Assembly: GCA_002841405.1 (NCBI GenBank)
Contig: PGZR01000003.1
Coordinates: 1 to 64,000, forward strand
Direction of reading: 5' to 3'
Source of the DNA: Firmicutes bacterium HGW-Firmicutes-4
GTDB lineage: Bacteria; Bacillota; Clostridia; Eubacteriales; Eubacteriaceae
DNA length: 64,000 bases
The position numbers were made by a program, and so were the translations under genes. Within the stretch, counting starts at the first letter, position 1. Each line of letters begins with the position of its first letter. Positions 6,902-46,351 of the stretch are shown one piece after another. Below the pieces are notes generated by a model. That model was not told the origin of the DNA and searched no databases. It worked only from the letters and a program-made list of their open reading frames with translations.

Positions 6902-6937
6902 AATTTCGCGATACTAATTGGTTGACACTTCGCTGGC

Positions 6938-26806: not shown

Positions 26807-29260
26807 ATGAATTCTGAATCTGGCACGCCCACCGCCGCCGCGGCTATCGCCAGTGCGGCAGCAGTGCCCACCAATCTGACGGCCCCAATCGAGCCGGAAA
26901 TCGATTGGGGTGAACTGACCCTGGCTGATATCATCGATGTGCCGGCCGTGCAGGCCCTGCTGGAAAGTTTTCAGCAGCTCACCGGAATGCTGGGAGCCAT
27001 CGTCGACAGTAAGGGTCAGGTGCTGATCAGCGTCGGTTGGCAGGACATCTGCACCAAGTTTCATCGCTGCCATCCCGAAACCCGGAAAAACTGTATTGAG
27101 AGCGATACCGTACTGGCCCAGGCGGCTGAGCCGGGGAGCTTCCAGGCCTATCGCTGCAAAAACGGGATGTGGGATATTTCCTCACCGATTGTGGTCTCCG
27201 GCCAGCATCTCGGCAATATCTATTTTGGCCAGTTTATCTATACCGATGAAGTGCTGGACCGGGAATATTTCCGGCAGCAGGCCCGCCTTTATGGCTTTGA
27301 AGAGAGCGCCTATCTGGCCGCCCTGGAACAGGTGCCCCGCTATGACCGCGAAACCGTTAAGGCGGTGATGGCCTTTTATGCCAGGATGGGGGCGATGATC
27401 TCGGACCTGGGTTTTAAAAACCTCAGTTTGTCCCGGACCCTGAGCGAACGGCAGCGGGCCGAAGCCGAACTGAGAGAGAGTGAAAAAAGATTTCAGCTGC
27501 TCTTTAACCGTGCCCCGCTGGGCTACCAGTCCCTGGATTTTGACGGCTATTTTCTGGAGGTAAATCCCAAATGGCTGGAAATTTTAGGCTATCAAAGAGC
27601 GGAAGTGATCGGGAAATGGTTTGGCGATTTTCTCTGCCCGGAATATGTGGAAGGCTTTCGCAAGCGCTTTCCGCTGTTCAAGTCCCAGGGTTACATCCAC
27701 AGTGAATTTGAAATGCTGACCAAGGACGGCCAGCGGCTGACCATCGCCTTTGACGGCAAGATTGGCTATGATGTCGACGGCGGCTTTAAACAGACCCATT
27801 GCATCCTCCAGGACATCACCCAACAAAAGGCCATGGCAGCCCAGCTTTACAATGAAAAAGAATTGTTTAAAACGACCCTGATCTCAATTGGCGACGGTGT
27901 CATCGCCACCGATACCCAGGGGCAGGTGCTGATCATCAACAAAATTGCCGCCAGCCTGACCGGCTGGACCCTGGCCGAAGCCTGTGGCCAGCCCATTGAA
28001 GCGGTCTTTGAAATCATCAATGAATTCACCCGGGAACGCTGCGAAAACCCCGTCGCCAAAGTGCTGGCGACCAAAAGCATCATCGAGCTGGCCAATCACA
28101 CCCTGCTGATTGCCCGTGATGGCAGTGAACGGCCAATTGAAGACAGTGCCGCGCCGATCATCGATGAACAGGGTAATCTCACCGGGGTGGTGCTGGTCTT
28201 TCGGGATTTTACCGAAAAGAAAAAGAACCATGATGAAATTAAATATTTAAGCTTTCATGATCATCTCACCGGCGCCTATAACCGCCGCTTTTATGAAGAA
28301 GAACTGGTCCGGGTGGATACCGCCAGAAACTGGCCGCTGACGATTGTGATGGGCGATGTCAACGGCCTCAAACTGATCAACGATTCCTTTGGCCATGCCG
28401 CCGGCGATCAGCTGCTAGTCAAGACCGCCGCCGCCCTGACCAACAGCTGCCGGGCCGATGACATCATCGCCCGGATCGGCGGCGATGAGTTTATCATCCT
28501 GTTTCCCAAAACCGATGCCTTTGAAGCCGCCCAACTGATCAAACGGATCAAGAAGCTGTTGCAGGAGGAAAGCATCGAGGGCCTGGAAATCTCAGTTTCC
28601 TTCGGGTCGGCCACCAAAACCAGCGCTGCCGACGAGATCGGAGAAGTCTTCAAACAGGCCGAAGATAAAATGTACCACAACAAACTCTATGAAGGCCCCA
28701 GTTTAAAGGGTCGGGTCATCGACAATATCGTTGCCGCCCTCAATCACAAGAGCAGCCGCGAGGAAGTCCATTCCCGCCAGGTCTCGATTCTCTGTGAAAA
28801 GATGGGCGTGGCCCTGGGCATGGACGAATATCAGATCAAAGAGCTAAAAGCCTTTGGCTTGCTTCACGATATTGGCAAAATCGCCATCTCTGATAAGATT
28901 CTTAACAAGCCCGACCGCCTCAGCGAGGCCGAATGGCTGGAGATGAAAAACCACGCCGAAATCGGCTACCGCATTCTCTGTACCAATACCGAGTTGACCG
29001 AGATTGCCGATTATGTGCTGGCCCACCATGAACGCTGGGATGGCAGCGGTTATCCCAAAGGCCTCAAAGGCCCGGAAATCCCCCTGCCGGCCCGGATCTG
29101 TGCCATCGCCGACGCCTATGACGCGATGATCAGTGAACGCAGCTACAAGTCCCCGCTGTCAACCGAGCTGGCCATCACCGAACTGCTTAACCATGCGGGC
29201 ACCCAGTTTGATCCCGAGCTGGTGCTGGTTTTTGTCGGGTTGATATCGGGGACAGCCTAG
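26807..29260 (+). CDS. Sensor protein: PocR, PAS, PAS, GGDEF and HD-GYP domains
   Basis: An 817-residue cytoplasmic c-di-GMP protein without membrane segments. After a low-complexity Ala/Pro-rich start, a PocR-type ligand domain covers about residues 30-200, with the cysteine-rich CTKFHRCHPETRKNC and YRCKNGMWD. PAS domains follow at about 225-345 and 350-475, then GGDEF with the intact motif RIGGDEFIILF and HD-GYP with LLHDIGK and HHERWDGSGYPKG. The last three domains parallel the sensor at 20458. PocR domains sense small molecules such as diols. A GTG nine bases upstream at 26798 is possible, but it overlaps the AGGA site. Confidence 0.92.
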   Translation: MNSESGTPTAAAAIASAAAVPTNLTAPIEPEIDWGELTLADIIDVPAVQALLESFQQLTGMLGAIVDSKGQVLISVGWQDICTKFHRCHPETRKNCIESDTVLAQAAEPGSFQAYRCKNGMWDISSPIVVSGQHLGNIYFGQFIYTDEVLDREYFRQQARLYGFEESAYLAALEQVPRYDRETVKAVMAFYARMGAMISDLGFKNLSLSRTLSERQRAEAELRESEKRFQLLFNRAPLGYQSLDFDGYFLEVNPKWLEILGYQRAEVIGKWFGDFLCPEYVEGFRKRFPLFKSQGYIHSEFEMLTKDGQRLTIAFDGKIGYDVDGGFKQTHCILQDITQQKAMAAQLYNEKELFKTTLISIGDGVIATDTQGQVLIINKIAASLTGWTLAEACGQPIEAVFEIINEFTRERCENPVAKVLATKSIIELANHTLLIARDGSERPIEDSAAPIIDEQGNLTGVVLVFRDFTEKKKNHDEIKYLSFHDHLTGAYNRRFYEEELVRVDTARNWPLTIVMGDVNGLKLINDSFGHAAGDQLLVKTAAALTNSCRADDIIARIGGDEFIILFPKTDAFEAAQLIKRIKKLLQEESIEGLEISVSFGSATKTSAADEIGEVFKQAEDKMYHNKLYEGPSLKGRVIDNIVAALNHKSSREEVHSRQVSILCEKMGVALGMDEYQIKELKAFGLLHDIGKIAISDKILNKPDRLSEAEWLEMKNHAEIGYRILCTNTELTEIADYVLAHHERWDGSGYPKGLKGPEIPLPARICAIADAYDAMISERSYKSPLSTELAITELLNHAGTQFDPELVLVFVGLISGTA

Positions 29261-29272
29261 CGCAATTGAGAT

Positions 29273-29296
29273 GCAACCCCGTTATGGGGTTGCTTT
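29273..29296 (+). terminator. Probable terminator of the PocR sensor gene
   Basis: GCAACCCC (29273-29280) and GGGGTTGC (29286-29293) form an 8-bp perfect stem with a five-base loop, followed by only three T. Confidence 0.5.
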
Positions 29297-29324
29297 GAGT
29301 TGGCCAAAATAGATCATTAATAAG

Positions 29325-29640
29325 TGCTGACCGCGGCTCTTGATCCCCATCGCGGGGAGATTGTCGGGGTTTCTTTGGCTGTTGCCCCCATATTAGCGGG
29401 AAATAATGGTTATGATGCGCTTTATATTCCACTAGGCCACCACGATCCCGATGGGGCCGGGTTCAATGCGGAGGCCGGGGCGCCACTGCGCTCGGCGATG
29501 ATCTTTTTCACCTGGCCAACGAAGGACTGAGCATTTTAGAAAACCTGGCCGTCCTCGGGGTACCGATCCCCAAACGCCTCAAACCGGTGGTCGCTGACCT
29601 GGGGGAGGAGGACCCGCCCCAAAACCCCTCTCAGCCTTAA
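29325..29640 (+). pseudogene. Chimeric remnant: phage polymerase N-terminus joined to holin C-terminus
   Basis: The frame from 29325 encodes TAALDPHRGEIVGVSLAVAP and IPLGHHDPD, closely matching the exonuclease region of the polymerase at 34774. It then switches without a break into EAGAPLRSAMIFF, which matches the holin at 41343. One base further the frame shifts and continues as LANEGLSILENLAVLGVPIP and KRLKPVVADL to a stop at 29640, again matching the holin. About 6.7 kb that separate these segments in the intact module are absent. It is a collapsed second copy of the phage-like module and is not expected to make a functional protein. Confidence 0.85.
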
Positions 29641-29645
29641 AAAAA

Positions 29646-29679
29646 ACACCACTGACACAAGCGTCAGCGGTGTTTTTTT
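29646..29679. terminator. Terminator after the chimeric remnant
   Basis: ACACCACTGAC (29646-29656) pairs with GTCAGCGGTGT (29663-29673), one mismatch, six-base loop, followed by T7. A preceding A tract lets it serve the minus-strand gene on its right. Confidence 0.85.
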
Positions 29680-29737
29680 AGGGGTGTGTCCGGCAATCCA
29701 GAAAGCGATGATGGTTTAATTATCGATAAACATCTGG

Positions 29738-29760
29738 CAAAAGAACCGTCCCCTTGATTA
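29738..29760. repeat. AAAAGAACCGTCCCCTTGATT motif, left copy
   Basis: The sequence AAAGAACCGTCCCCTTGATT lies 8 bases beyond the metallophosphatase stop. The same motif occurs on the other side of that gene at 31221-31260 and in a variant at 60013. It resembles a widespread short motif, often found with REP-associated tyrosine transposases in other bacteria; that link is from general knowledge, not shown here. Confidence 0.6.
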
Positions 29761-29767
29761 TTTCTGC

Positions 29768-31051
29768 TTAGTCCAGAGTTTGGATGGTACCATCGGGCAG
29801 GTACTGCATCAGGCGGACAGCGGTAGAGTCCTTGCCGGATTCAATGACCACAAAGGTCATAACCGCAAGCTGCGCGTTTTTATCAATCCAGGTGCCACTG
29901 TTGGCATAGATTTTCTCACGGTTGTAGCCGTCGTTGAAGGTGTTGTAAACCGGCACATGGGTATGACCAAAGACGACCACATCAACGCTGGGATCGACAT
30001 CAAAATATTGGGTCACCGCCTGCTGGTCAGTATAGGTGGAGTCCTGAGCTTTGGCCGTGGCAATGTCATAGGGCAGTTTGACGGCGACGCCATTGGCGGC
30101 CTGTAAGGCATCCCAACGCTGCTGCACATTGTTATAGAGGGGGGCATTGATGGTGCCGTCCGGCTGGGTGGTTGGCAGCAGATCACTGAGGGCAAAGATG
30201 TCGTTGTAACCATCGACATCAACTTTAATGGTGGGTTCGGTGAAAGCGGCGTTAATCGGGAAGGTTGCGATGGTTCCGGCCCAGGTCTGGTAATAGGCAT
30301 AAGCGCCCAGCTGGTCGATATTATCGGCGGCCGGGGCAGCCACTTGGGGCAGGTCTTTGGCTGGGGCCGACATCCCTTCGGCAACCGACGTGGCGGCGAT
30401 CCGGGTAAAGAAATAACCGGGCGGCAAAATTGATGGGTAAGCGCCGGTGAAGTCTTTATTGGACAGCGAATCCGGGGCGCAGAAGGTGTTGTAGCGGTGA
30501 CCGTGTTCAATGATGATCTCGGCCCGCTCACCGGTGCGGTAGGTGCCCAGACCAGCGACATCGCGGAACTGTTTGATGCCGGGAACCAGTTCAGCCAGCA
30601 GCTCATCCGTCAGCAGCAAATCATGGTTGCCGGGCACATAGGTGACCGCGATGCCGCTCTTCATGACCGTTTCAATGGCAGCGACGACATCGGCATTGTT
30701 TTCGGCAACTTTTGTGAAGAAGGCCTTGAGTTCCGTCGGTCCGCTATAGTCGGTCGGGACAAACCATTCATCAAAAAGGTCACCGGCGATGACCAGTTCA
30801 TCAATTTCGCTGGCGGTGAGGGCATTTAAAAAAGTGACCAGGGCCGCTTTATTGGTGACGGTTTCGGAGAAACTGTCATCAGCCCCCAGATGCAGATCGC
30901 TGATGACAACAATCCGTTTGGCGTCAGGGGTCGCATTTTCGTCCCATAGAGGCAGTGCCTGGGCCTGACTGGCGGGTTTGGAACAGGCGGTCAGGGACAA
31001 AATCAGAAGGGCAACAAGGCTTAGAATCAGACCATGTTTTAACGATTTCAT
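29768..31051 (-). CDS. Exported lipoprotein metallophosphatase (calcineurin-like)
   Basis: A 427-residue metallophosphoesterase. The signal (LSLVALLILSLTAC) has a lipobox with the acylated cysteine near residue 23. The fold's metal ligands are all visible in order: DLHLGADD, GDLFDEW, GNHD, EHGHRYN and FGHTHVPVYN, so it should be an active two-metal hydrolase. The overall motif pattern is like LpxH-type UDP-sugar hydrolases, but an extracellular substrate is implied and cannot be named. The start at 31051 follows AAAAAGGAGCTTAC; a longer frame starts 52 codons upstream without support. It is flanked on both sides by copies of the AGAACCGTCCCC motif, which suggests a mobile cassette. Confidence 0.88.
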   Translation of the reverse strand: MKSLKHGLILSLVALLILSLTACSKPASQAQALPLWDENATPDAKRIVVISDLHLGADDSFSETVTNKAALVTFLNALTASEIDELVIAGDLFDEWFVPTDYSGPTELKAFFTKVAENNADVVAAIETVMKSGIAVTYVPGNHDLLLTDELLAELVPGIKQFRDVAGLGTYRTGERAEIIIEHGHRYNTFCAPDSLSNKDFTGAYPSILPPGYFFTRIAATSVAEGMSAPAKDLPQVAAPAADNIDQLGAYAYYQTWAGTIATFPINAAFTEPTIKVDVDGYNDIFALSDLLPTTQPDGTINAPLYNNVQQRWDALQAANGVAVKLPYDIATAKAQDSTYTDQQAVTQYFDVDPSVDVVVFGHTHVPVYNTFNDGYNREKIYANSGTWIDKNAQLAVMTFVVIESGKDSTAVRLMQYLPDGTIQTLD

Positions 31052-31216: not shown

Positions 31217-31262
31217 GACACAAAAGAACCGTCCCCTTGATTACACGTCCCCTTGATTACAC
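31217..31262. repeat. AAAAGAACCGTCCCCTTGATT motif, right copy, partly doubled
   Basis: The motif ACAAAAGAACCGTCCCCTTG is followed by a second shorter unit, ACGTCCCCTTGATTACACGG. It is in the same orientation as the copy at 29738, so the metallophosphatase gene lies between direct repeats. Confidence 0.65.
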
Positions 31263-31436: not shown

Positions 31437-32489
31437 ATGGCTGACACCAAATTAAAATGTTTACGGGTGCTGGATATTTTAAACGAAACCGACATCGATC
31501 ATCCCCTGACCACGGCCCAGATTTCTGAAAAACTGGCCTTATTCGACTTGGCGGCCGAGCGCCAGGCGATCAGCCAGGATATTGCGGTGCTCAACGAAGC
31601 CGGCTATCAGATCCGGCCCTGTCCCGACAACAAGCGCGGCTATTATCGGGCCACCCGGCGTTTTGAAAACTGGGAAATCAAGGTGCTGATTGACGCCATC
31701 GTCAGTGCCAAATTTTTAACCGATTGCGATATCCGGGCCATCACCGCCAAGCTCCAGGGCATGGCCAGCCGCGACAGTGCCAAACTGCTGAGCCGGGTGA
31801 CCCCGGTTAATCGTCAGCGCAAACCCGACAACCTGTTTGTCAAAGCCTCCATCGATCACCTGCTGGAAGCCATCCGCACCCACAAAAAAGTGCAGTTTCA
31901 GTATCTCTATACCGATGCCGACATGAAAAAGCAGTTGCGCAAAGACGGCTACTTTTACGTGGTGAACCCCTACGCCCTGACCTGGAAGGACGACCACTAC
32001 TACCTGATTGGCAACCTCGACAAATATGACAACCTTGGTTATTACCGGCTGGACCGGATGACCAATCTGACCATGCTCGCTCAGCCCGTCAAAGACGCCA
32101 CGACGCTGCTCGGCGAAAACCCCGCCCAGCGCATTGACGACTATGTCGCCACCGCCATCTACTGCCATAGCGGCGCCAAGATCAACCTGCAGCTGCTGTG
32201 TCAGTACGGTCTGGAGGATGAAATCATCGATTATTTCGGAACGGACCATTATCATACCAAACAACCCGACGGCTTTGAGTGCCACATCCGGGTGATGCAC
32301 AGCAAGGGCCTGATCTACTGGCTGATGCAGCACGGCGACAAGGTCAAGGTGCTGGCCCCTGAGGCCGTCAAGGATGAGCTGATCGCCAGCCTCCAGGCCA
32401 CTCTGGCCCAGTATCCGCCGGCAGAGCCCAGCGCCGCCGGGGAAGGGCAGAATCATGGCATCAAATCATCAAACCAGCACCTTAACTAA
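31437..32489 (+). CDS. WYL-domain transcriptional regulator
   Basis: A 350-residue DNA-binding regulator. An HTH of the DeoR-like type occupies about residues 1-70 (LRVLDILNETDIDHPLTTAQ), and the WYL domain about 140-230, with YALTWKDDHYYLIGNLDKYD and YYRLDRMTNL. A C-terminal WCX-like extension follows. WYL regulators often bind nucleic-acid ligands and control phage-defence or DNA-damage genes. A truncated paralogue starting with the same MADTKLK lies at 42729, after RadC of the phage-like module. The start has GGCGG upstream. The next gene overlaps its end by 35 bases. Confidence 0.93.
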   Translation: MADTKLKCLRVLDILNETDIDHPLTTAQISEKLALFDLAAERQAISQDIAVLNEAGYQIRPCPDNKRGYYRATRRFENWEIKVLIDAIVSAKFLTDCDIRAITAKLQGMASRDSAKLLSRVTPVNRQRKPDNLFVKASIDHLLEAIRTHKKVQFQYLYTDADMKKQLRKDGYFYVVNPYALTWKDDHYYLIGNLDKYDNLGYYRLDRMTNLTMLAQPVKDATTLLGENPAQRIDDYVATAIYCHSGAKINLQLLCQYGLEDEIIDYFGTDHYHTKQPDGFECHIRVMHSKGLIYWLMQHGDKVKVLAPEAVKDELIASLQATLAQYPPAEPSAAGEGQNHGIKSSNQHLN

Positions 32490-33949: not shown

Positions 33950-34381
33950 ATGCACATAAAAAGTAAAGGAAATAAAAAAAAGTCCGATCAGGATGCTGAT
34001 CGGCTAGAAAATGGGCCGGGAATGACGATCGTCAGGTGTCCCCATGTAAAGACCTGCCGATTTGGCGAGCGGCAAGCTATACAAGCCCGGAACCGCTGTC
34101 GCGGTGTATTGTGCCGGGTCAATCATTGGGAAGCCTGTCTGATTATTGCTTTTAAATGCCAGCGGTTACGCCAGCAGATCATGGTTGAGGTCAAAGGTCA
34201 TGCCATCCGGCATATTACCCGAAATTCAACCGAGCACCAGGAAGCCCAGCGCCGGATTAAACAGCTATTCTGTAAGGTCTGTAAGCACCGGGTACTGGAT
34301 TACTATGTCGTTTATGGAGATGCCAATATTGATGTGAAATGTCATCGTGATGGGCATTTGGGTTCCCATTTCATCAAATAA
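33950..34381 (+). CDS. Hypothetical cysteine-rich protein
   Basis: A 143-residue basic protein with nine cysteines, among them CPHVKTC, CRGVLC, and CKVCKHRV followed by CHRDGH near the end. The last group looks like a zinc ribbon of the kind seen in small phage proteins such as Com. There is no signal peptide. The start is uncertain: the ATG at 33950 has no good ribosome site, and a second ATG at 34022 is equally weak. A 9-bp inverted repeat (ACCGATGGT at 33878, ACCATCGGT at 33916) precedes it. It lies just before the phage-like module. Confidence 0.5.
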   Translation: MHIKSKGNKKKSDQDADRLENGPGMTIVRCPHVKTCRFGERQAIQARNRCRGVLCRVNHWEACLIIAFKCQRLRQQIMVEVKGHAIRHITRNSTEHQEAQRRIKQLFCKVCKHRVLDYYVVYGDANIDVKCHRDGHLGSHFIK

Positions 34382-34576
34382 TAAAAAAGGAGGTCGGTTT
34401 GGCGGAAAGGCCAGACCAACAGAAACAAGATAATTAAAGAGTGACGATGTGAAATGATACTGAGTTAAGATGCGCCTGTTCTAACAGAGTGACTAAGATA
34501 CCGGATGTTCGCAAATTTTGGGAAGTGGCCCACTGGTTTGTGTACATGCGGTATTTTTTTGCGTTCTCACACAACC

Positions 34577-34674
34577 GTACCGACCAATTGTTAATCTGTT
34601 GTTCGCCACAAGCTCGGACAGGCTTTGCCGTGTCCGCCTTGATGCGTACAACATGATGTAACAATTGTCGGTAC
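34577..34674 (+). repeat. Dispersed palindromic element, copy 5
   Basis: A 98-bp copy with standard outer arms, CAAG/CTTG inner pair and CGGACA/TGTCCG hairpin. The apex differs from copies 3 and 6 (GGCTTTGCCG). It is followed by a 48-bp stretch resembling the one after copy 6. It lies 100 bases before the polymerase start. In the 392-bp gap from 34382, nothing else is supported; an open frame around 34489-34650 (FWEVAHWFVYMRYFFAF) runs into the repeat and may be a remnant. Confidence 0.87.
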
Positions 34675-34773
34675 TGGGCTGGCTGCGGGTATGGGGTGTG
34701 TTGCCTCACTGAAATGTCAGCTCCGGTGTACCGGTTTGCTGCGGCCACTTCCTTACAATTAGAAAGGATAACG

Positions 34774-36750
34774 ATGAAAAGAAATTATCAGATGACGACG
34801 GATTTGCAGGTGGTTGAGGAGTATTTGGGTGAAGCGGTGCTCATTGCCTTTGATTTTGAAACGGCGCCGGGCCCGGCTTGGCGGGCGGACCGGGGGACGG
34901 CCCTGGACCCTCACCGGGGGGTGATTGTCGGGGTGTCGCTGGCGGTGGCACCGGGTACCGCGGTCTATCTGCCGCTGGGTCACCGGGATTTTGACAATAT
35001 TGATGCCCAGGCCGCCTTTGAATTTTTGCGGCGGCGGGTTTTTGAAAACCCCGGGGTCATTAAAATTGCCCATAACCTGGCCTTTGAGGCCAAGTTTCTG
35101 CTGGCCCGGGGGATTGCCCTGGTGGCCCCGGTCTATGACACCATGGCCGCGGCGCTCCTGATTTATAAAGAAGCCGGCCATTTTCGTCGGCTGGCCGATG
35201 TGGGTTTAAAGACCCTGGCCCGGGACTGGTTGGGACTTACCCTGCCGGGTTTTGTGGAGGTGGTCGGGGTCGGCAGCTTTGCCGATCTTAACCCCGGGGA
35301 TCAGGCCACCATCGCCTATGCCTGTGCTGATGCCGATCTGGCCCGGCAGCTTTATTTTCTGGAAAACGACTGGTTTGGGAAGAATATCCCGGCCCACGAA
35401 AAGCTGGTCAAGGCCATTGAGAGTCCGGTGGCGCTCTTTACCGCCCGGATGGAATACCGCGGCTTTGGGGCCGATGGGGCCGGGATTGCAGCCGCGGCCA
35501 TGACCTGTCGCGACCGGCTGGGGATTTATCAGAATGATCTGGAAAGCGGCGGCAGGCGACCGGTGCGGGTGGGCAAAAATGCCGCCACCAATGATCTGAA
35601 GGCCTATCTCTTTGAAGACCTGAAGCTGCCGGTCCTAAAACGCACCGACACCGGCAAAGCGGCTCTGGATGAGGATGCCATCAAGCAGCTGAGTGGCTAT
35701 TGCCGGGACCGGGGCCTGCCGGCAAGGGCCTATCTGGCGGCGATTTCGGCCTATCGGGGGCTGGCCAAGCTCTATAAAACCTATGTAGCGGGGCTTAGGG
35801 ACCAGATCAATCCGGCCACCGGAGCCATCCACACCCAGTTGTTTCCCCTGGGGACGGCCACCGGCCGCTTTGCTTCGGCCCAGCCCAATTGTCAGAACCT
35901 GCCGGCGGGGCCGACCCATGGCGTCAACGTCCGGGATTTTCTGGTGGCCCGGCCGGGCACCACCCTGGTGGCGGTGGATTACAGCCAGATTGAGCTGCGC
36001 ATCGGGGCCTGGTTTACCGGCGACCCCAACCTCCTGGCGGTGTACCGCGACGGCGGCGATATCCATGCCGTCACCACCGCGGCCGTCTATGGGATTTCCC
36101 TGGCCGAGGCCGGCGACAAGGGCCATCCCGATTATAAGGCCCGGCGGACGGTGGCCAAGAATATCAATTTTGGCATTTTTTACGGCCTCTATCCCCGGGG
36201 ATTGCAGAATATTCTGCGGGTCAAGGCCAATCAAAGGCTCAGCCTGGAAGCCTGTGAGGCGATGATTTTTAATCTGAAATTGGCCTATCCGGGACTGGTC
36301 CCCTGGCAGGAAGCCACCCGGGCCGCCGCCCGCTATCACGAAACCGTCGACACGGCCCTGGGCCGGCGCCGCACCCTGCCGGGGATTAATGCCCCGGAAC
36401 CGGGCCTTCAGAGTCATTTTGAGCGGGCCGCCCTCAACCACCCGATTCAGGGCACGGCGGCGGATATTTTAAAGCTGGCCATGGTCCGGCTGGAGGCGGG
36501 GCTGGCCGACCACCCCGATATCTGGCCGCTGCTAACCGTTCACGATGAGATCGTCTTTGAGGTGGCAACGGCCCGGTTGGGGGAGTCGATTGCCTGGATC
36601 ACCGCCGTGATGACAGCACCGCCCTTCCCGGGCTTTGACGTCCCCCTGGCCGTCGAAGTCACCGTCGGCGACCGCTATGGTTCGCTGGCGGGCTGGGAGC
36701 GGGCCGAATCAGGCGGGAGGAGTCACCCTGACGTACCGACCAATTGTTAA
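34774..36750 (+). CDS. Phage-type DNA polymerase, family A, with 3'-5' exonuclease
   Basis: A 658-residue polymerase without the 5' nuclease domain of chromosomal Pol I. The exonuclease domain begins with FDFETAPGP, giving the DxE ligands. Polymerase motif A is VAVDYSQIELR near residue 399, motif B is RRTVAKNINFGIFYG near 457, and motif C is LTVHDEIVFE near 588. This is the arrangement of phage replication polymerases. The start at 34774 follows AGAAAGGATAACG. The last residues (VPTNC) and the stop codon are supplied by palindrome copy 6, which has inserted into or replaced the original 3' end. The primase-helicase gene follows. Confidence 0.93.
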   Translation: MKRNYQMTTDLQVVEEYLGEAVLIAFDFETAPGPAWRADRGTALDPHRGVIVGVSLAVAPGTAVYLPLGHRDFDNIDAQAAFEFLRRRVFENPGVIKIAHNLAFEAKFLLARGIALVAPVYDTMAAALLIYKEAGHFRRLADVGLKTLARDWLGLTLPGFVEVVGVGSFADLNPGDQATIAYACADADLARQLYFLENDWFGKNIPAHEKLVKAIESPVALFTARMEYRGFGADGAGIAAAAMTCRDRLGIYQNDLESGGRRPVRVGKNAATNDLKAYLFEDLKLPVLKRTDTGKAALDEDAIKQLSGYCRDRGLPARAYLAAISAYRGLAKLYKTYVAGLRDQINPATGAIHTQLFPLGTATGRFASAQPNCQNLPAGPTHGVNVRDFLVARPGTTLVAVDYSQIELRIGAWFTGDPNLLAVYRDGGDIHAVTTAAVYGISLAEAGDKGHPDYKARRTVAKNINFGIFYGLYPRGLQNILRVKANQRLSLEACEAMIFNLKLAYPGLVPWQEATRAAARYHETVDTALGRRRTLPGINAPEPGLQSHFERAALNHPIQGTAADILKLAMVRLEAGLADHPDIWPLLTVHDEIVFEVATARLGESIAWITAVMTAPPFPGFDVPLAVEVTVGDRYGSLAGWERAESGGRSHPDVPTNC

Positions 36751-36832
36751 TCTGTTGTTCGCCACAAGCTCGGACAGGTCTATCAACCTGTCCGCCTTGA
36801 TGCGTACAACATGATGTAACAATTGTCGGTAC
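36733..36832 (+). repeat. Dispersed palindromic element, copy 6, overlapping the polymerase 3' end
   Basis: A 100-bp copy nearly identical to copy 3. Its first 18 bases (GTACCGACCAATTGTTAA) encode the last five residues and the stop of the polymerase. It lies between polymerase and primase, and the 48 bases after it resemble those after copy 5 (GGTATGGGGT and CCTCAC in both). Confidence 0.9.
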
Positions 36833-36928
36833 TGGTTGGTGCTGGTATGGGGTTGTGGCCTCACGTAAATGTCGGGCCCTACTGAGGTTTCAGCATCGGG
36901 TCCGACCATTAATAAATGGAGAAAAGCA

Positions 36929-39274
36929 ATGAAAAATAAATCGTTAAAACAGATCATTCCCCTGGATATCAGTCCGGCGGTCTTTCTGGCCGCCTTTGGC
37001 CCCGGGCCCTATGGGCTGCGGTCTTTTGCCGAGGGGGCGGCGGGCCGCGGCGGGGGCCGCAACCGGACGGCCACGGCGATCGAGCTGGCCGATCCGGAGG
37101 GGGCCCTGCTAGCAGAGCTGCGGGCCGAAAATGACGGGGAGCGGCGGGGGATCTTTTTTGTGGTCAACCCCGGCGGCCATAAGGATGCCGAGATCACCGG
37201 GGTGGCGGCCCAGTTTGTGGAGGCCGACGACCTGCCGCTGGCGACCCAGTGGGATAACCTGATGGCCTTTCCGCTGCCGCCCTCGATTGTGGTAAAAACC
37301 CGCAAGTCCCTGCATGGTTACTGGCTGATGACCCTGTCATCTGGAGGAGACGCAACCCCTGATCAAGACACCCCCGTCCTGGCCCGCTTCACCCCGCTCC
37401 AAAAACAACTGGCGGCCCACTTTGGCGGCGATCCGGTGATTTCAAACCCCAGCCGGGTCATGCGGCTGCCGGGTTTTAACCACCATAAGGCCGAGCCGGT
37501 GGCGGTAGCCTGTATGCTCTTTGAACCCGACCGCCGTTATGACCAGACCGAGCTGGCCGCGGCCCTTAAGCAGCTGCATCCCGATGACCCCCGCTTCAGG
37601 GCGACCGCCGCCCCCAAAAGCCCGGCCAAGGCCCGGCCTGCGGTGGCTCTGGATCGGCCCCGGGGGGATTTTGATCTGGATCAGCTATTGAGTGGCTGCG
37701 ATTTTATCCGCTACTGTCAGGAAGCCGCCGCCAGTCTGCCGGAGCCGCTGTGGTATCCGATGATTACCAATCTGGCCGATGTCCCCGGCGGTGAGGCGGC
37801 CATCCATCGTCTGTCGGCAGCCCATCCCGGTTACAGCTTTGCGGCCACGGCGGCCAAAATTGCCCAGTTTCGCCGCTCAGGCACCGGTCCCTTTACCTGT
37901 GAAACCATTGCCGCCTGGGGCTTTACCTGTCCTAAGCTCGGCCACTGTCCGGCCCAGCGGCCCCAGGACCGCGGTCAGGTGCCACCGCCGCCCTGGTATC
38001 GGCAAAGCCGGACCGGCCTGCGGCTGATCCCCGGCGTCCTGGCCAATGCCCTGGCGGCCCACAAAAAGATCTTTTATTCCCGGCAATGCTATTATCAGTA
38101 TCTGGGTGGGGTTTATCAAAAGGTCGATGAGCTCCACGTCAAGCACATCATCCGCAAATACCTGCGCCTTGATGATGTCATGATGCATCAGATCAACGAC
38201 ATCGCCGGCCAGTGGACCATGGAAATCCTCAAAAGCCCGGACCGTCTCAATGTTAACCGCGACCTGATCAATTTAAAAAACGGCCTCTATGACCGCTGCA
38301 CCCGGACGCTTCGGCCCCATGATCCCGACCTGCTGTCAACCATTCAGCTGGCGGTGTCCTATCAGCCCCAGGCCCCGGCCCCGCTTTTTGCGGCCTTTTT
38401 AGATGATTGTTTGGACCCGGCCACCCAGGTGCTGGTCCAGGAGCTGTGCGGCTATCTGCTGGTGCCGGAAACCCGGGCCCAGAAGGCTTTTGTCCTGGTG
38501 GGGGAAGGGGGCGCCGGCAAATCGACCCTGCTTTCGGTGATTCAGGAGCTTTTGTTGGGGGCGGCCAATGTTTCTAATATTTCCTGGCAGAATCTCGGCG
38601 AGACCTTTTTAACCGCCGAGCTGGACGGCCGGCTGGCCAATATCTTTGCCGATCTGCCCTCTAAAAACATTGACGACAGCACCCTCTTTAAGAGTATCAC
38701 CGGGGAGGACTGGCTGACCGCCCAGCGCAAAAACAAGGACCCTCACGGCTTTAAGAGTACCGCCCGGCTGGTCTTTTCCTGCAACAGCATCCCCAAAAAT
38801 CTGGGCGACCGCAGCGAGGCCTTTTACCGCCGCCTGGTGATCATCCCCTTTGGACCACCCAAACCGCCGGCCCAGCGGGACCTCCATTTAAAGGATAAAC
38901 TGGCCCGGGAGGCCCCGGGGATTCTCAACTGGGCCCTGGCCGGACTGGCCCGGCTGGCCGATAACGGCTATCGCTTCAGTGAATCCGCGGCCAGCCGGGA
39001 AGCCCTCAATAGCTATCGGGTGGCCGGCAGCTCGGTGCTGTCCTTTGTGGCGGATTGCTGCCTGGTGGGTCCCGGACGGCAGGTGGCGGCGGCCCAGCTC
39101 TACCACGCCTACCAGCAGTACAGCGGGGCTTCGGGGCTGCGGCCGGTTAGCCAGAAACGCTTCTGGATGGAGTTAAAAGAAAGCTATGGGATGGTGGAAA
39201 AAACGAAGGATTCATTGTCGAGACGGGCGATTTACGAAGGCATTGACCTGGAAGAATTGGCTGATTTTGGCTGA
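36929..39274 (+). CDS. Phage/plasmid primase-helicase (P4/D5 type)
   Basis: A 781-residue replication protein. The N-terminal part to about residue 280 resembles an archaeo-eukaryotic-type or RepB-like primase region (VVKTRKSLHGYWLM, SNPSRVMRLPGFNHHKAEPV). The C-terminal part is an SF3 helicase of the P4/poxvirus D5 family: Walker A GEGGAGKST near residue 525, Walker B-like ANIFADLPS, and the sensor stretch RLVFSCNSIPKNLGDRSEAF. It should unwind and prime DNA for the polymerase encoded upstream. The start at 36929 has ATGGAGAAAAGC upstream. GC-rich codon use matches the polymerase, not the AT-rich cassette further on. Confidence 0.9.
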   Translation: MKNKSLKQIIPLDISPAVFLAAFGPGPYGLRSFAEGAAGRGGGRNRTATAIELADPEGALLAELRAENDGERRGIFFVVNPGGHKDAEITGVAAQFVEADDLPLATQWDNLMAFPLPPSIVVKTRKSLHGYWLMTLSSGGDATPDQDTPVLARFTPLQKQLAAHFGGDPVISNPSRVMRLPGFNHHKAEPVAVACMLFEPDRRYDQTELAAALKQLHPDDPRFRATAAPKSPAKARPAVALDRPRGDFDLDQLLSGCDFIRYCQEAAASLPEPLWYPMITNLADVPGGEAAIHRLSAAHPGYSFAATAAKIAQFRRSGTGPFTCETIAAWGFTCPKLGHCPAQRPQDRGQVPPPPWYRQSRTGLRLIPGVLANALAAHKKIFYSRQCYYQYLGGVYQKVDELHVKHIIRKYLRLDDVMMHQINDIAGQWTMEILKSPDRLNVNRDLINLKNGLYDRCTRTLRPHDPDLLSTIQLAVSYQPQAPAPLFAAFLDDCLDPATQVLVQELCGYLLVPETRAQKAFVLVGEGGAGKSTLLSVIQELLLGAANVSNISWQNLGETFLTAELDGRLANIFADLPSKNIDDSTLFKSITGEDWLTAQRKNKDPHGFKSTARLVFSCNSIPKNLGDRSEAFYRRLVIIPFGPPKPPAQRDLHLKDKLAREAPGILNWALAGLARLADNGYRFSESAASREALNSYRVAGSSVLSFVADCCLVGPGRQVAAAQLYHAYQQYSGASGLRPVSQKRFWMELKESYGMVEKTKDSLSRRAIYEGIDLEELADFG

Positions 39275-39485: not shown

Positions 39486-39693
39486 ACTCCTTCGGAAAAG
39501 GCGAAACCGGGTGAAAAGAAATAAAGGAAAAAGTAATGGAAAAAGCATACCGGAGGATGAAAGGGGGACGTTACGGCGTGTCAGCTCTTAGGATGACATC
39601 CCGTAATGTTCCCCTGTCATGCGGAGGAAACGACAGCCCTCTGGCAGCAACCCGGCGGTGCCACCGCAAGCCCCAAAAAGAAAGGAGCCCCTC

Positions 39694-40080
39694 ATGAGTA
39701 ATAAATCCATCAAAACGATTAAAGCGTCGATCACCGACCTGCAGGCCCGGATCTGGCGCAATACCCAATATCTGGGCCACACTCAGAAACAGTTGTCCTC
39801 GATTTACCGGGCCAGTCCGGCCACTGCCCACCGCAGCCGCCAGCAAGTCCGGACGCTGCAGGCCGCCATTGCCCGGGACAGCCGCCACTTAGAAGCCGCC
39901 AGCCGGGCCCTGGTCGCCGCCATCGACAGCCAGGAAAACCCCCAGATCCAGGAAATCCTGACCCGCCGCTATGTAAAAGATCAACCCTTTGCCGCGATCG
40001 CCGCGGCCATGGGCTATGATCTGCGCTGGGTCTACCGGCTCCATGCCCGGGGGGTAGGGGACGAAAAAAAGCCGGGTTAA
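39694..40080 (+). CDS. Phage-type transcriptional regulator (sigma region 4-like HTH)
   Basis: A 128-residue basic protein. Its C-terminal third contains EILTRRYVKDQPFAAIAAAM followed by GYDLRWVYRLHARG, a helix-turn-helix like that of sigma-70 region 4. It resembles the small DUF1492/RinA/ArpU-type activators that switch on late genes in Firmicute phages. The N-terminal part is helical and rich in Arg and Gln. The start follows AAAGGAGCCCCTC. It sits between the replication genes and the lysis genes, the normal position of a late-gene activator, though no structural genes follow. The exact family is inferred from pattern and length. Confidence 0.7.
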   Translation: MSNKSIKTIKASITDLQARIWRNTQYLGHTQKQLSSIYRASPATAHRSRQQVRTLQAAIARDSRHLEAASRALVAAIDSQENPQIQEILTRRYVKDQPFAAIAAAMGYDLRWVYRLHARGVGDEKKPG

Positions 40081-40160: not shown

Positions 40161-40190
40161 AAAGACAAATCTAGGAAGGGAGGACAAACC

Positions 40191-40412
40191 ATGGCAGTAA
40201 CCACTGATTTTCTGGAACAGAAGCTCCAGATCCGCTCCAACCACGGCATCGTCGATGGCAAGGAAAAAGTCACCAGCCGCACCTACGGCGATGTCAAAGC
40301 CGACGCCACCGATACCGACATCTATGATGTGGCCGAGATCATTGCCGGGCTGCAGCAGCCGGTGATGGAAGAAGTCATCAAACAGGAAGTAAGCCTGATC
40401 ATCCCCGTGTAA
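40191..40412 (+). CDS. DUF1659 family protein
   Basis: A 73-residue protein (AVTTDFLEQKLQIRSNHGI at the start; TDIYDVAEIIAGLQ in the middle). It matches in length and pattern the DUF1659 family, small Firmicute proteins of unknown function that usually pair with DUF2922, as here. The start follows AGGAAGGGAGGACAAACC. Palindrome copy 7 begins 15 bases after its stop, between it and the DUF2922 gene. The pair often lies near holin and lysin genes. Confidence 0.8.
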   Translation: MAVTTDFLEQKLQIRSNHGIVDGKEKVTSRTYGDVKADATDTDIYDVAEIIAGLQQPVMEEVIKQEVSLIIPV

Positions 40413-40555: not shown

Positions 40556-40780
40556 ATGGCAGCAAATACCATCTTGCAACTGACCTTTAAACGGTCGGAT
40601 CTGAAAACCACCACCATGTCGATTACCAATCCCAAGCCGGGACTGACCGTGGAAGCGGTCAATACCGCCATGGCGGGCATCATTGCCAAAAACATTTTTG
40701 CCCCGGATGGCATGGACCTGATCTCCAAGGCCAAGGCTGAACTGGTCGTCACCGACACCACCGCCTTTTCCATGAGCTAG
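40556..40780 (+). CDS. DUF2922 family protein
   Basis: A 74-residue protein (ANTILQLTFKRSDLKTTTMS at the start, then PGLTVEAVNTAMAGIIAKNI). It has the length and pattern of DUF2922, small Firmicute proteins that go with DUF1659. The function of the pair is unknown. The start follows GAAAGGAGGAACCCA. The endolysin gene follows after 51 bases. Confidence 0.8.
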   Translation: MAANTILQLTFKRSDLKTTTMSITNPKPGLTVEAVNTAMAGIIAKNIFAPDGMDLISKAKAELVVTDTTAFSMS

Positions 40781-40831: not shown

Positions 40832-41377
40832 ATGAACCCATTTATTAAAAAAGTACAGGAAGCCCTGGCGGCCCGGGGCTATGCGCCCGGGCCCATTGAC
40901 GGCCGGGACGGGCCCAAGACCAGGAAGGCGGTTAAAGCCTTCCAAAAAGATTCCGGGCTGGAGCCCGATGGCCAGGTCGGCCGTCTCACCGAAAACCGGC
41001 TCTTTACCGACCAACTTAGCATCATCTCCTTTGATGGCGATGGCTCGACGCCCCATTTTGCCCGGGACGAATTTGCCTGTGATTGCGGCGGGGCCTATTG
41101 CGACGGTTTCCCGGCGGCGATGAACCTGGAGCTGCTGCTGAAGCTGGAAGCCCTGCGCAATGCCCTTGACGTCCCGGTGCGGATCACCTCCGGGGTCCGC
41201 TGCCCGACCCGCAACGATGAGGTCGGGGGCGTCCAGAATTCCCAGCATCTCTTTGGTCAGGCCGCCGATTGCTATGCCCACGGCATCCCGATTGCCACCG
41301 TCGCCGCCATTGGTGAGAGCCTGGGGTTGACCGCGATCCTCTATGAGGCCGAGGGCTTTGTCCATCTGGCGGTATAG
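40832..41377 (+). CDS. Endolysin: peptidoglycan-binding plus M15 peptidase
   Basis: A 181-residue cell-wall hydrolase. Residues 1-60 form a PG_binding_1 domain (VQEALAARGYAPGPIDGRDG, TRKAVKAFQKDSGL). The rest is an M15_3-type zinc peptidase with SQHLFGQAADCYA, which supplies His and Asp ligands, and FVHLAV, which supplies the last His. It cleaves cross-links or D-Ala ends of peptidoglycan. No signal peptide is present, consistent with release through the holin encoded next. The start follows AGAAAGGATAGGAT. Its last 35 bases overlap the holin frame. Confidence 0.9.
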   Translation: MNPFIKKVQEALAARGYAPGPIDGRDGPKTRKAVKAFQKDSGLEPDGQVGRLTENRLFTDQLSIISFDGDGSTPHFARDEFACDCGGAYCDGFPAAMNLELLLKLEALRNALDVPVRITSGVRCPTRNDEVGGVQNSQHLFGQAADCYAHGIPIATVAAIGESLGLTAILYEAEGFVHLAV

Positions 41378-41786
41378 CTGGGCTCTGGTTGGCGGCCTGG
41401 TCGGTCAGATCCTGGGTGGTTGGGACGGCTTTCTGCTTTGCCTGACCGCCTTTGTGGTGATCGACTACCTGACCGGCTTTCTGGCCGCAGCCTGGCAAAA
41501 ACGGCTGTCCAGTGCCCAGGGCTTTCGCGGCATCCTTAAAAAAGTGCTGATCTTTATGGTGGTGGGGATGGGCCACCTGCTCGACACCGCCCTGCTGGGT
41601 GGGGCCGGGGCCCCGCTGCGGTCGGCGCTGATTTTTTTCTATATCGCCAACGAAGGCCTGAGCATTTTTGAAAACCTGGCCGTCCTGGGGGTGCCCATCC
41701 CCAAACGCCTCAAACAGGTGATCGCAGAGCTGGGGCAGGAGGACGACCCCAGACCGGCCGATCAAGCCAGCGCCTCGATTGAATAA
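41343..41786 (+). CDS. Holin (phage_holin_4 type)
   Basis: A 147-residue membrane protein of the toxin-secretion/lysis holin family. After a basic start there are hydrophobic segments: ALVGGLVGQILGGWDGFLLC, LTAFVVIDYLTGFLAAAW, and VLIFMVVGMGHLLDTALL, followed by GAPLRSALIFFYIANEGLSI and a charged tail. It makes the membrane lesion that lets the endolysin out. The N-terminus overlaps the endolysin by 35 bases and may be abnormal: the usual holin start region is replaced by endolysin-overlapping codons (MRPRALSIWRYS). Its C-terminal half reappears in the chimeric remnant at 29.5 kb. Confidence 0.85.
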   Translation: MRPRALSIWRYSWALVGGLVGQILGGWDGFLLCLTAFVVIDYLTGFLAAAWQKRLSSAQGFRGILKKVLIFMVVGMGHLLDTALLGGAGAPLRSALIFFYIANEGLSIFENLAVLGVPIPKRLKQVIAELGQEDDPRPADQASASIE

Positions 41787-42675: not shown

Positions 42676-42930
42676 GGTGCCGACCACCGACAAATTTAAG
42701 GGGCCGCCCCCAGACAGGCAGGTAAACCATGGCCGATACCAAACTTAAGATGCTCCGGGTCCTTGATATCCTCACCGAAACCGACCCCGACCATCCCCTG
42801 ACCACCGCCCAGATTGCCGACCAGCTCAGCCTTTTTGGTCTGAGTGCCGAGCGCAAGGCGATTAACCGCGATATCCACGTGCTGCAGGAGGCCGGCTATG
42901 ATATCCGCCCCTGCCCGGACAACAAGCCCG

Positions 42931-42961
42931 CCCGACCATCACCGCGATGGTCGGGTTTTTT
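42931..42961 (+). terminator. Terminator within the truncated WYL frame
   Basis: CCCGACCATC (42931-42940) and GATGGTCGGG (42946-42955) form a perfect 10-bp stem with a five-base loop, followed by T6. It probably once followed the missing 3' part of the gene or another gene. Confidence 0.92.
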
Positions 42962-43045
42962 AGCAGATGTTAGGTTTTTTGGAAGCCAAGTCATCGATGG
43001 CGGCCTTTTTGTTGAAAAAAAAGGTTGGTTTGGGCGGATAAGGTT

Positions 43046-43073
43046 TTGCGTTTCCGTACGAAAAGCGTATAAT
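43046..43073 (+). promoter_or_regulatory. Probable promoter of the PLD-helicase gene
   Basis: TTGCGT (43046-43051), 16 bp, TATAAT (43068-43073). The context AAAAGCGTATAATA is close to that of the WYL gene promoter at 31369. Confidence 0.6.
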
Positions 43074-43151
43074 AAAATTATCATGTTCGCGTCAGCTGAC
43101 CGTCCGCCCTGATGGCGGACCGGATTGGCTCCTGGGCAGAAAGAGGAAATC

Positions 43152-45704
43152 ATGGCAAACTATCAGATTATTGGACCCGCTACCAACCACAACTGCATCA
43201 CCGGCGAACACGATCACTTTTATCCCTATCTCCGGGAAGCGATCGGCCGGGCGCTTAAAATCGACCTAAATGTGTCTTTTCTGATGGTCTCCGGCGTCCG
43301 CCTCCTGCTAAAAGATCTGGCCGCGGCGGCAACGGCAGGGGTGCCGATTACCATTCTCTGCGCCAATTACCTTAACATCACCCAGCCCGAAGCCCTCTAT
43401 CTGCTCAAAGATGCCCTGGGCGACCGGTGTGATCTGCGCTTTTACAATGTTCCTAATCAGTCCTTTCACGCCAAGGCCTATTTTTTTTCCTACCCCGAGG
43501 GGGAGGAGGTCTTTGTCGGCTCTTCCAACCTGTCCCGTTCGGCCCTGACTTGCGGCATTGAGTGGAATTACCGGATTGACAGCCGGTCCCATCCCGGCGA
43601 CTGCGCCTTTTTCCGCCAGACCTTTGAGAACCTGCTAAAACATCACAGCATTCCCATCGATGACCGGGAGCTCAAACGTTATGCCAAACAATGGGTGCTG
43701 CCTAAAATCTATCAGCAGCTTGACCAGCTCGAAGCCGACCAGCCGCAAGAAACCATGGAAGAGCCATGGCCGGATAATCGGGTGGCCCAGCCCCAGGCCG
43801 GTTATGAGGTGGATGTCGCTGATTCCGTACCGGCGCCGATGATTGCCTTTCCCCAGCCCACCGGGGCTCAGGTGGAAGCCCTCTATGCGCTAAAACAGTT
43901 TCGCCGCGAACAGCTTGACCGGGGCCTGATTGTGGCCGCCACCGGCATCGGCAAAACCTTTCTGGCCGCCTTTGATAGTCGTGATTATAAACGGATTCTC
44001 TTTGTCGCCCATCGCGATGAAATTCTCAGCCAGGCCGCCCATACCTTTGCCTGCGTCCGGCCCGACCTTAGCGCCGGCCACTTTGACGGCAGCTGCAAGG
44101 ATACCGCCGGGGCGATTATTTTTGCTTCGGTCCAGACCCTGGGCAACCGCGACTATCTGTGCGACCGCTATTTTGCCCCCGATGCCTTTGAATACATCAT
44201 CATTGACGAATTCCATCACGCCGTATCCAGCTGTTATCAGAACATCATCGATTATTTTAAACCCGGTTTTCTTTTGGGCCTCACCGCCACCCCGGAGCGG
44301 CTGGACAATCAGGACGTTTTTGCACTCTGTGACTACAATGTGGTTTACGAGGTCCGCCTCAAAGAAGCCATCAACCGCGGCTGGCTGACCCCCTTTCGCT
44401 ATTACGGCATCTACGATGATCTGGACTACGACCAGATCGATTTTAAAAATGGCCGCTACGATGATAAGCAGCTGGCGTTTCTGGCCAGCGTCAACCACCG
44501 CGGCAATCTGATTTTTCAGCATTATGCCAAATATGGCAGCCGCCGGGCCCTGGGCTTCTGCATCAACCGCCGCCACGCCCTTTATATGACCCGCTATTTT
44601 AGGAATCAGGGGGTCGCCTGCGCCGCGGTGATTAGCGGCAGCCCGCCGGATGATGGCAAAGCGCTGACCCTGGACCGGGAAACCGCCATCAAAAAACTCA
44701 AGGACGGGGAGCTACAGGTGCTTTTTTCGGTGGATATGTTTAACGAGGGGCTGGATATCCCCGAACTGGACATGGTCCTGTTTCTGCGGCCGACCCAGTC
44801 ACCGACGGTCTTTCTGCAGCAGCTGGGCCGGGGTCTGCGCAAGACCCGGGGCAAAACCCATGTCAAGGTGCTGGATTTTATCGGCAATTATAAAAAAGCC
44901 AATCTGGTGCCCTTTTTTCTGACCAGCACGGCCCCACCGGAAAGCGGCGGCCGCCGGGGCTACCAGCTGCCCACTGAAGCCGATTTTCCCGAGGACTGTC
45001 TGGTTGACTTTGATTTCCGGTTGATTGATCTGTTTAAGAAAATGGCTCAGGATCAGAAGAAACTAAAAGACCGGCTGGTGGATGAGTTTGACCGGATCAG
45101 TGCCGAACTGGGTCGCCGGCCGCTGCGGCTGGATCTCTACGTCCATCTCGATGAAGCCATCTATCAGAGCATCCGCAGCAAAAAAGACCTCAATCCCTTC
45201 CGGGATTATCTGACCTTTCTTGATGCGATCGGCCAGACCACGGCCGCCGAAAAAGAACTGCTGGGCAGCCCGGGTCATGCCTTTTTAAGAAACATCGAAA
45301 ACACCGCCATGTCAAAAACCTATAAAATGCCGGTGCTGCTGGCCTTTTATAACAATGGTGCGATGAAGCTGGCCATTGATGACGACGATCTTTACCAGAG
45401 TTTCAAGGCTTTCTATGAAAAGGGCTCCAACCGGGTCGATCTGCTGCGCGACAAGACCACCGCCAATGCCATGAACTGGGGCAAAAAAGAATATGTCAGC
45501 CTGGCCAGGCGTAATCCGGTTCATTTTCTGGCCCAATCCGCCGGGGAATTCTTTTTTCTAAACGGTGAGACTTTCTGTCTGGCGCCCGAACTGGACGCCT
45601 TTGTGACCAACCCGGTTTTTGTCGGACACTTTAAAGATATTATCGACTACCGCACCAAACGCTTTTATAAAGAACGGCTGGAAAAAATGGAAACCCAGGC
45701 GTAA
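43152..45704 (+). CDS. PLD-nuclease/SF2 helicase fusion
   Basis: An 850-residue protein. Residues 1-200 form a phospholipase D-type nuclease half with His106 and Lys108 in SFHAKAYFF and the GSSNLS motif. The SF2 helicase follows: Walker A ATGIGKTF near residue 260, DEFH box near 350, LLGLTATPERLD, and the motif VI-like LQQLGRGLRK. The C-terminal 230 residues are helical and not recognised; they differ from the end of the paralogue at 51401. Such proteins lie in defence islands and probably recognise and cut foreign DNA while translocating, an inference from domains. The start follows AGAGGAAATC. Confidence 0.85.
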   Translation: MANYQIIGPATNHNCITGEHDHFYPYLREAIGRALKIDLNVSFLMVSGVRLLLKDLAAAATAGVPITILCANYLNITQPEALYLLKDALGDRCDLRFYNVPNQSFHAKAYFFSYPEGEEVFVGSSNLSRSALTCGIEWNYRIDSRSHPGDCAFFRQTFENLLKHHSIPIDDRELKRYAKQWVLPKIYQQLDQLEADQPQETMEEPWPDNRVAQPQAGYEVDVADSVPAPMIAFPQPTGAQVEALYALKQFRREQLDRGLIVAATGIGKTFLAAFDSRDYKRILFVAHRDEILSQAAHTFACVRPDLSAGHFDGSCKDTAGAIIFASVQTLGNRDYLCDRYFAPDAFEYIIIDEFHHAVSSCYQNIIDYFKPGFLLGLTATPERLDNQDVFALCDYNVVYEVRLKEAINRGWLTPFRYYGIYDDLDYDQIDFKNGRYDDKQLAFLASVNHRGNLIFQHYAKYGSRRALGFCINRRHALYMTRYFRNQGVACAAVISGSPPDDGKALTLDRETAIKKLKDGELQVLFSVDMFNEGLDIPELDMVLFLRPTQSPTVFLQQLGRGLRKTRGKTHVKVLDFIGNYKKANLVPFFLTSTAPPESGGRRGYQLPTEADFPEDCLVDFDFRLIDLFKKMAQDQKKLKDRLVDEFDRISAELGRRPLRLDLYVHLDEAIYQSIRSKKDLNPFRDYLTFLDAIGQTTAAEKELLGSPGHAFLRNIENTAMSKTYKMPVLLAFYNNGAMKLAIDDDDLYQSFKAFYEKGSNRVDLLRDKTTANAMNWGKKEYVSLARRNPVHFLAQSAGEFFFLNGETFCLAPELDAFVTNPVFVGHFKDIIDYRTKRFYKERLEKMETQA

Positions 45705-45736: not shown

Positions 45737-46351
45737 ATGACTAAGTTATCCCATAGAACCGCAAATAAAACGTTGCAATATTATAATGAAACCGCCCAAA
45801 CCTTTGTCCAGGGTACCATCGACGCTGACCTCAGCAAACTGCATCGACGCTTTTTAAAACTGTTGCCGATTCAGGCCCACATCCTCGATCTGGGCTGCGG
45901 CTCCGGCCGCGACAGCAAAGCTTTTCTTGATGCCGGTTATCAGGTCACTGCCATTGACGGCTCGGAAGGCTGCTGCCGCCTGGCCGCCGATTATATCGGC
46001 CAGCCCGTGCTCTGCCAGACCTTTGCCGAACTCAATTTTGATGCGGCCTTTGACGGCGTCTGGGCCTGCGCTTCATTGCTCCATGTGCCCTATGCCGAAC
46101 TGACCGATATTTTCCGGAAAGTCGCCCGGGCCCTGCGTCCCGGCGGCACTTTATACGCTTCCTTTAAATATGGGGATTTTGAAGGGGAGCGCAACGGCCG
46201 GTATTTTACGGATCTGGATGAGGGGCGGCTGGCGGCGCTGGTGGCGCCGGTGGCGGGGTTGACGGTGGTTGAGACATTTGTGACCGGAGATGTGAGAGCT
46301 GGACGGGGTGGGGAGACGTGGTTGAATGTGATTGGGGTAGTGAATAATTAG
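45737..46351 (+). CDS. SAM-dependent methyltransferase, copy 1
   Basis: A 204-residue class I methyltransferase. The SAM-binding motif is ILDLGCGSGRDSKAF near residue 52, and DGVWACASLLHVPY near 108 is the motif IV region. The small size and FRKVARALRPGGTLY motif are those of small-molecule or TehB-like methyltransferases, not of sequence-specific DNA enzymes. It is very similar along its whole length to the protein at 60610. The start follows AGGAGAACCGC. The AT-rich cassette begins just after its end, and the corresponding place after copy 2 carries an HNH nuclease. Confidence 0.88.
   Translation: MTKLSHRTANKTLQYYNETAQTFVQGTIDADLSKLHRRFLKLLPIQAHILDLGCGSGRDSKAFLDAGYQVTAIDGSEGCCRLAADYIGQPVLCQTFAELNFDAAFDGVWACASLLHVPYAELTDIFRKVARALRPGGTLYASFKYGDFEGERNGRYFTDLDEGRLAALVAPVAGLTVVETFVTGDVRAGRGGETWLNVIGVVNN

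Follow-up and report, generated by a model that had tools for sequence, protein, structure and literature searches.

We identify a short feature near 29.3 kb of the window (the whole 64,000-nucleotide stretch analysed here) as a dead pseudogene scar, and not a small gene, in which a piece of a phage-type DNA polymerase gene runs directly into the end of a holin gene. We take it, with a probability of about 0.87, to be what is left of a phage-derived module that collapsed by internal deletion and that belonged to a lineage other than that of the intact module still resident in the window. The scar, the hairpin after it, the resident module and the two WYL genes discussed below lie on the forward strand. 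The resident module opens with a gene for a small cysteine-rich protein (33950-34381), which has no Pfam hit and has relatives upstream of the polymerase in related modules. This is followed by genes for a family A DNA polymerase with a 3'-5' exonuclease domain (34696-36750; PF00476, E 2e-86, and PF01612), a primase/helicase with D5_N and DUF5906 matches of the phage DNA primase kind (36869-39274), a phage-type transcription-regulator-like protein (39619-40080; phrog_36, E 4e-6), DUF1659 (40188-40412) and DUF2922 (40556-40780) proteins, an M15 peptidase with a peptidoglycan-binding domain, i.e. an endolysin (40832-41377), and a holin (41343-41786; PF05105, E 2e-39). The genome belongs to Acetobacterium: the named relatives of the polymerase come from A. 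dehalogenans, A. wieringae, A. woodii (a MAG), A. fimetarium and an Acetobacterium sp. MAG, and their contigs recur among the genomes of the window's genus.

The left half of the scar (29329-29481) derives from about codons 44-94 of a PolA-type phage DNA polymerase. Nucleotide alignment within the window matches it to the resident gene over a short stretch (29334-29389 against 34898-34953, 76% over 55 nt, E 2e-5), and a longer match is obtained to the second A. dehalogenans copy of the module (G004:C2; 29329-29482, 154 nt, 73%, E 6e-19), to which 38 of 51 translated residues are identical. The right half (29473-29614) is a Phage_holin_4_1 relative covering the last third of the gene, from about codon 86 to near its end, and aligns with positions 41603-41745 of the resident holin (87% over 142 nt, one 1-nt gap, E 2e-43); the E-values of 6e-19 and 2e-43 exclude a chance match for either half. 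Both halves retain the gene order and orientation of the module. The polymerase piece, with about codon 94 as its last codon, passes in frame into the holin, whose frame is then lost by a one-base deletion at 29509/29510, about 28 nt past the sequence shared by the two genes. Polymerase codons 1 to about 43 are absent, marking a second break on the left side of the scar, so that with a missing start and a broken frame the feature is a pseudogene. A terminator-like hairpin lies downstream (29652-29667). The earlier note's description of a polymerase part joined to a holin part without intervening sequence is thus borne out by both alignments; the first part, which the note placed in the exonuclease region, spans just some 50 codons and not that whole region.

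The C2 polymerase match reaches 29482 and the holin match begins at 29473; hence, the halves abut with an overlap of about 9 nt and nothing between them. The overlapping sequence, GGCCGGGGC (29473-29481), is common to relatives of both genes and is short and GC-rich: it is present in the resident holin, and the polymerase piece ends in an 18-nt run (CAATGCGGAGGCCGGGGC, 29464-29481) that recurs without change in the other A. dehalogenans polymerase (G004:C68). A short repeat at the junction, for which the earlier note had advised a search, is thus present. Its exact length depends on which genes replace the lost parents: 9 nt for the polymerase of C68 with the holin of the window, 5 nt if the polymerase is taken from C2, and 2 to 5 nt with some other stand-ins. 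Among real polymerase/holin pairs, random pairs of breakpoints fall inside an exact run of at least 9 nt about once in 10,000. The junction fits an illegitimate deletion at short homology and falls short of proving one, because the parent module is not preserved, and both the microhomology length and the size of the loss rest on stand-ins. Accepting these, we posit that a replication-lysis module of non-resident lineage would once have sat after the GGDEF gene, with the full set of genes, from the small cysteine-rich protein to the holin, that is listed above for the resident module; that an illegitimate deletion at the short GC-rich sequence may have brought holin codon ~86 directly behind polymerase codon ~94; and that the start of the polymerase would have gone with a second break, and the frame with the loss of one base. 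Homology, gene order, junction, frameshift and the lack of this junction in related genomes are observed directly, whereas the order of events, and the view that the join came from a deletion and not from crossing-over of two modules, are inferred.

At 87.1%, the identity of the holin half to the resident holin is of the order seen between species (83-91% for intact holins of the main group, apart from three near relatives at about 96%); to the holin of A. wieringae it is 89.1% and to the C2 copy 81.3%. The near-identity expected of a recent duplicate is not seen in either half, with the holin at 87% and the polymerase piece at 76% to their resident counterparts. Moreover, the polymerase half contains a 21-nt (seven-codon) insertion, which in the polymerase alignment is common only to the C2 copy and which the resident polymerase lacks. 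A holin half at between-species distance, together with an insertion that the resident gene does not have, points to a separate module lineage. Most differences fall on third codon positions, 13 of 18 in the comparison with the resident gene and 12 of 15 in that with A. wieringae; counted strictly, the scar has one substitution and the lost base to itself. Most of the divergence therefore arose while the sequence still coded, and the copy was probably a functional gene through a divergence of between-species depth and was inactivated late. Parentage also bears on the extent of the loss: the 6.7 kb given in the earlier note cannot be upheld as an exact figure, as the parent was not the resident module, and the estimate is 6.6 kb for a parent like the resident one and 9.3 kb for one like the A. 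dehalogenans C2 module with its defence cargo.

The insertion points to C2, whereas the holin half is nearer the A. wieringae and window types (89 and 87%) than C2 (81%), so that either the parent was a mosaic or two modules contributed; the collapsed copy is possibly mosaic. This leaves some room, although we consider it the less probable course, for a variant in which recombination between two nearby modules, one giving the polymerase and the other the holin, produced what would still be the scar of a second copy. Such a crossover would account for the different nearest relatives of the two halves, and A. dehalogenans does carry two fuller modules in addition to decayed ones; further, the polymerase and primase of its C2 module have different nearest relatives, indicating that modules do recombine. 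Against this, a module that was already mosaic yields the same pattern in a single event, and the present genome has no second module in the right place.

Recent tandem duplication of the resident module with a WYL regulator, followed by collapse of one copy, is improbable, even though it is this that the two WYL genes at first suggest. An intact gene for a WYL regulator of 350 aa (31437-32489) and the 5' fragment of a second (42729-42932), recognized by homology, share the start MADTKLK that the earlier note reported; each lies downstream of a module copy, and no further strong WYL match of this kind exists elsewhere in the genome. However, the fragment is homologous over 68 codons, in which it is 75% identical in amino acids to the intact copy, before it breaks off into sequence upstream of a ResIII helicase gene, and the genes between module and regulator differ at the two loci (metallophosphoesterase versus radC); these add to the between-species distance of the holin halves and the missing insertion. 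No such WYL gene occurs near any other module in the genus, and the closest orthologue (67%, in G001) is part of a 14-kb stretch that contains no module genes and has a radC fragment 2.3 kb from the orthologue. Hence, the WYL gene is better read as belonging to the radC locus than as the module's own regulator. Thus, of the claim that a second copy of the module existed and collapsed, the collapse stands on gene order, orientation, the broken frame, the unique junction and other collapsed copies in the genus, and the recent duplication does not. In the window we also observed a perfect 23-base direct repeat (29738-29760 and 31221-31243) flanking the metallophosphoesterase gene, and two methyltransferase genes (45766-46336 and 60627-61197) that are 82% identical and about 15 kb apart. 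From 42952-43300 onward, across the ResIII helicase and a methyltransferase gene, the window is 95% identical to A. dehalogenans (helicase 95% and methyltransferase 93% in amino acids); being closer to that species than the module genes are, the restriction-like genes from 42952 on may, as this similarity suggests, have been exchanged recently.

Conservation of the chimera as an intact frame in many genomes, which the earlier note had named as the observation that would speak against a deletion scar, is not found. Part of the region 29250-29700 is matched in 12 of the 19 Acetobacterium genomes, the window's own included, and only its own matches through the junction, which is absent from the other 18. 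In a wider set, the 68-residue frame is matched in 7 of 101 genomes, again counting its own, and both halves together are found in that one alone. A junction 26-mer occurs in 3 of 198 loci, all three overlapping the window itself, and a 24-base version is absent from the viral contigs. The species is represented by this one genome, in 225 contigs and 86% complete, and so fragmented an assembly could conceivably have joined two loci wrongly. We regard such an artefact as quite unlikely: the shared sequence is only about 9 nt, while usual assembly overlaps are far longer, the assembly has no other copy of this polymerase variant, the frame is decayed, and similar collapses occur in other genomes. 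As for a real small gene, the 68-codon open frame (29324-29530) that spans the junction would be its coding sequence, an idea that hardly survives the frameshift ending the holin reading, the lack of a Pfam match for the chimeric frame, of a promoter-like site in 29200-29800, and of the junction in any genome but its own, whether among the 19 of the genus or the 101 searched more widely.

Across the genus, relatives of the polymerase with at least 63% identity are encoded at 8 loci in 7 of the 19 genomes (own included), and all eight loci have the primase, DUF2922, M15 and holin genes, although in G008 the primase is in pieces and the contig ends inside the holin. A radC gene is near seven of these eight fuller modules, the exception being G004:C2. 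The module genes evolve under purifying selection (dN/dS of 0.07 to 0.38 over 62 pairs). The phage portal PF04860 is found in 13 of the 19 genomes and never near a polymerase-bearing module; in module-bearing genomes the two are in every case on separate contigs or some 1 Mb apart. An argument from an absence of terminase in the module-bearing genomes was dropped, as the portal search revealed prophages in several of them.

In its genus the scar of the window does not stand alone. Among 56 holin matches, 10 are short partial copies in six of the 19 genomes (four in G000, two in G004 and one each in G007, G013, G014 and G016), nine of which keep the 3' part and one the 5' part; this count comes from a search with the full-length holin, a query with window 29250-29700, which carries only the 3' part, being biased towards 3' remnants. 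Collapsed copies with other pieces of the module are seen at G000:C220, G004:C16, G005:C53, G013:C50, G014:C23 and G016:C61. The first of these has a gap in the primase and M15 joined to the holin; at G004:C16 the primase is joined to DUF1659 across an exact 10-nt run; and at G005:C53 the polymerase is followed by pieces of the primase and the regulator. Deletions have fused the M15 endolysin in frame to the 3' part of the holin at both G000:C220 (L035, 5805-6458) and G013:C50 (L034), in frames of 217 and 190 codons. In-frame fusion was considered as a sign of selection and set aside: of the seven junctions that could be checked, the one in the window and those placed by tblastn coordinates, four are in frame, no more than expected by chance. 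The start near codon 86 of three remnants (the window, G004:C68 and G016:C61) raised the idea of a site-specific recombination site in the holin. This is disfavoured by the other remnants, which start at about codons 71 to 113 or, in one case, keep the 5' part, by the differing left neighbours, and by the GC-rich nature of the site; a short homology common to them, or one ancestral event behind them, explains the coincidence more simply, which for the three remnants near codon 86 amounts to a preference only.

Inside the otherwise intact G004:C2 module of A. dehalogenans lies an AbiL-like/RloAB-like defence pair (L027, 7652-10010), an AAA ATPase and an RloB-like protein placed between the regulator and the DUF1659/DUF2922 genes. 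We further noted a second module type without a polymerase (G010:C16, L041; G018:C10, L194; G009:C1:228907, L038; G008:C522/C588), with the primase at about 60% and the M15 protein at about 70%; in G010 its lysis genes are preceded by the C-terminal part of a Cas12a, other cas-like genes and an AbiLi-like ATPase. A near-palindromic, MITE- or REP-like repeat of about 104 bases, whose ends read GTACCGAC...GTCGGTAC and whose middle varies, is found on either side of the resident polymerase gene (34576-34677 and 36732-36835). It recurs at 6933-7048 and 8964-9067, with shorter copies at 40425, 5493, 3211 and 3373, and is matched in 17 of the 19 genus genomes, many of which have at least 40 copies.

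Taken alone, the scar is an ordinary textbook deletion pseudogene; what deserves to be followed is its parent module, gained and collapsed time and again. Tentatively, and with more doubt than assurance, we propose that this parent is a functional, genus-specific, phage-derived Acetobacterium element with replication and lysis genes only and no particle genes, placed mostly at one hot spot by radC and defence-like genes, able to carry anti-phage cargo such as the AbiL/RloAB-like pair of A. dehalogenans, kept under purifying selection, and repeatedly acquired and collapsed. If so, the scar would be a fossil of a living cycle of gain and loss of a controlled-lysis or satellite-like element. Its value lies in the evidence that a replication-plus-lysis module without particle genes repeatedly comes and goes at one acetogen locus, and this recurrence makes it testable whether reduced phage modules are useful to the host, through controlled lysis or defence cargo, or just slow to be lost.

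The replication half of the module resembles the replication region of clostridial phages and prophages, where the polymerase is about 40-48% identical in most loci, a primase (27-52%) follows in most, and a regulator-like gene is sometimes present, as in the module. Unlike in the module, relatives of DUF1659, DUF2922, M15 and the holin are absent downstream in the 137 loci outside Acetobacterium, within the stretch examined. The whole set including these four is found at 6 of 6 Acetobacterium loci and at none of the 137 loci from other genomes and from viruses, a comparison with flanks of at most 10 kb and many shorter contigs. One phage contig has relatives of both polymerase and holin, about 26 kb apart as against 6.6 kb here. 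Holin relatives (47-60%) are present in 72 viral loci, none of which has M15, DUF1659 or DUF2922 relatives near the holin. An alignment scan of viral contigs with the primase returned no relative, which is no argument against phage relatives, as primase relatives are found beside those of the polymerase. A cell-side counterpart of the lysis half is seen in an Acetobacterium chromosomal cassette (G004:C24, L189, 6361-8689; a similar one at G000:C3, L187) in the order holin - M15 - DUF1659 - DUF2922, followed in G004:C24 by a sigma factor. The G004:C24 cassette has the same four families as the module but another gene order, about 58% holin identity and, within the stretch examined, no polymerase or primase match. 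By its gene content, the module resembles a phage replication region to which a lysis cassette has been attached, particle genes being absent.

Phage satellites (P4-like, PICI) are small, have their own primase, lack capsid genes and may carry defence genes. The module has these traits in common with them but has a polymerase and lysis genes in place of integrase and packaging genes, neither of which was found among the module proteins scanned. A provirus of A. wieringae, which need not be this module, is described in PMC10134865. Cryptic or defective ('grounded') prophages, which decay by deletion according to a review (PMC6379469), share with the module chromosomal phage-type replication and lysis genes, no portal nearby, nested internal deletions and, in one copy, defence cargo; by the portal search, structural genes are absent or decayed in the module, as in such prophages. 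In contrast to cryptic prophages, the fuller modules are a fixed gene set across species, mostly at one locus (radC/ResIII) and under purifying selection, and not a random residue. We lean towards regarding the module as a phage-derived block in slow decay, preserved for a time because its genes were under selection.
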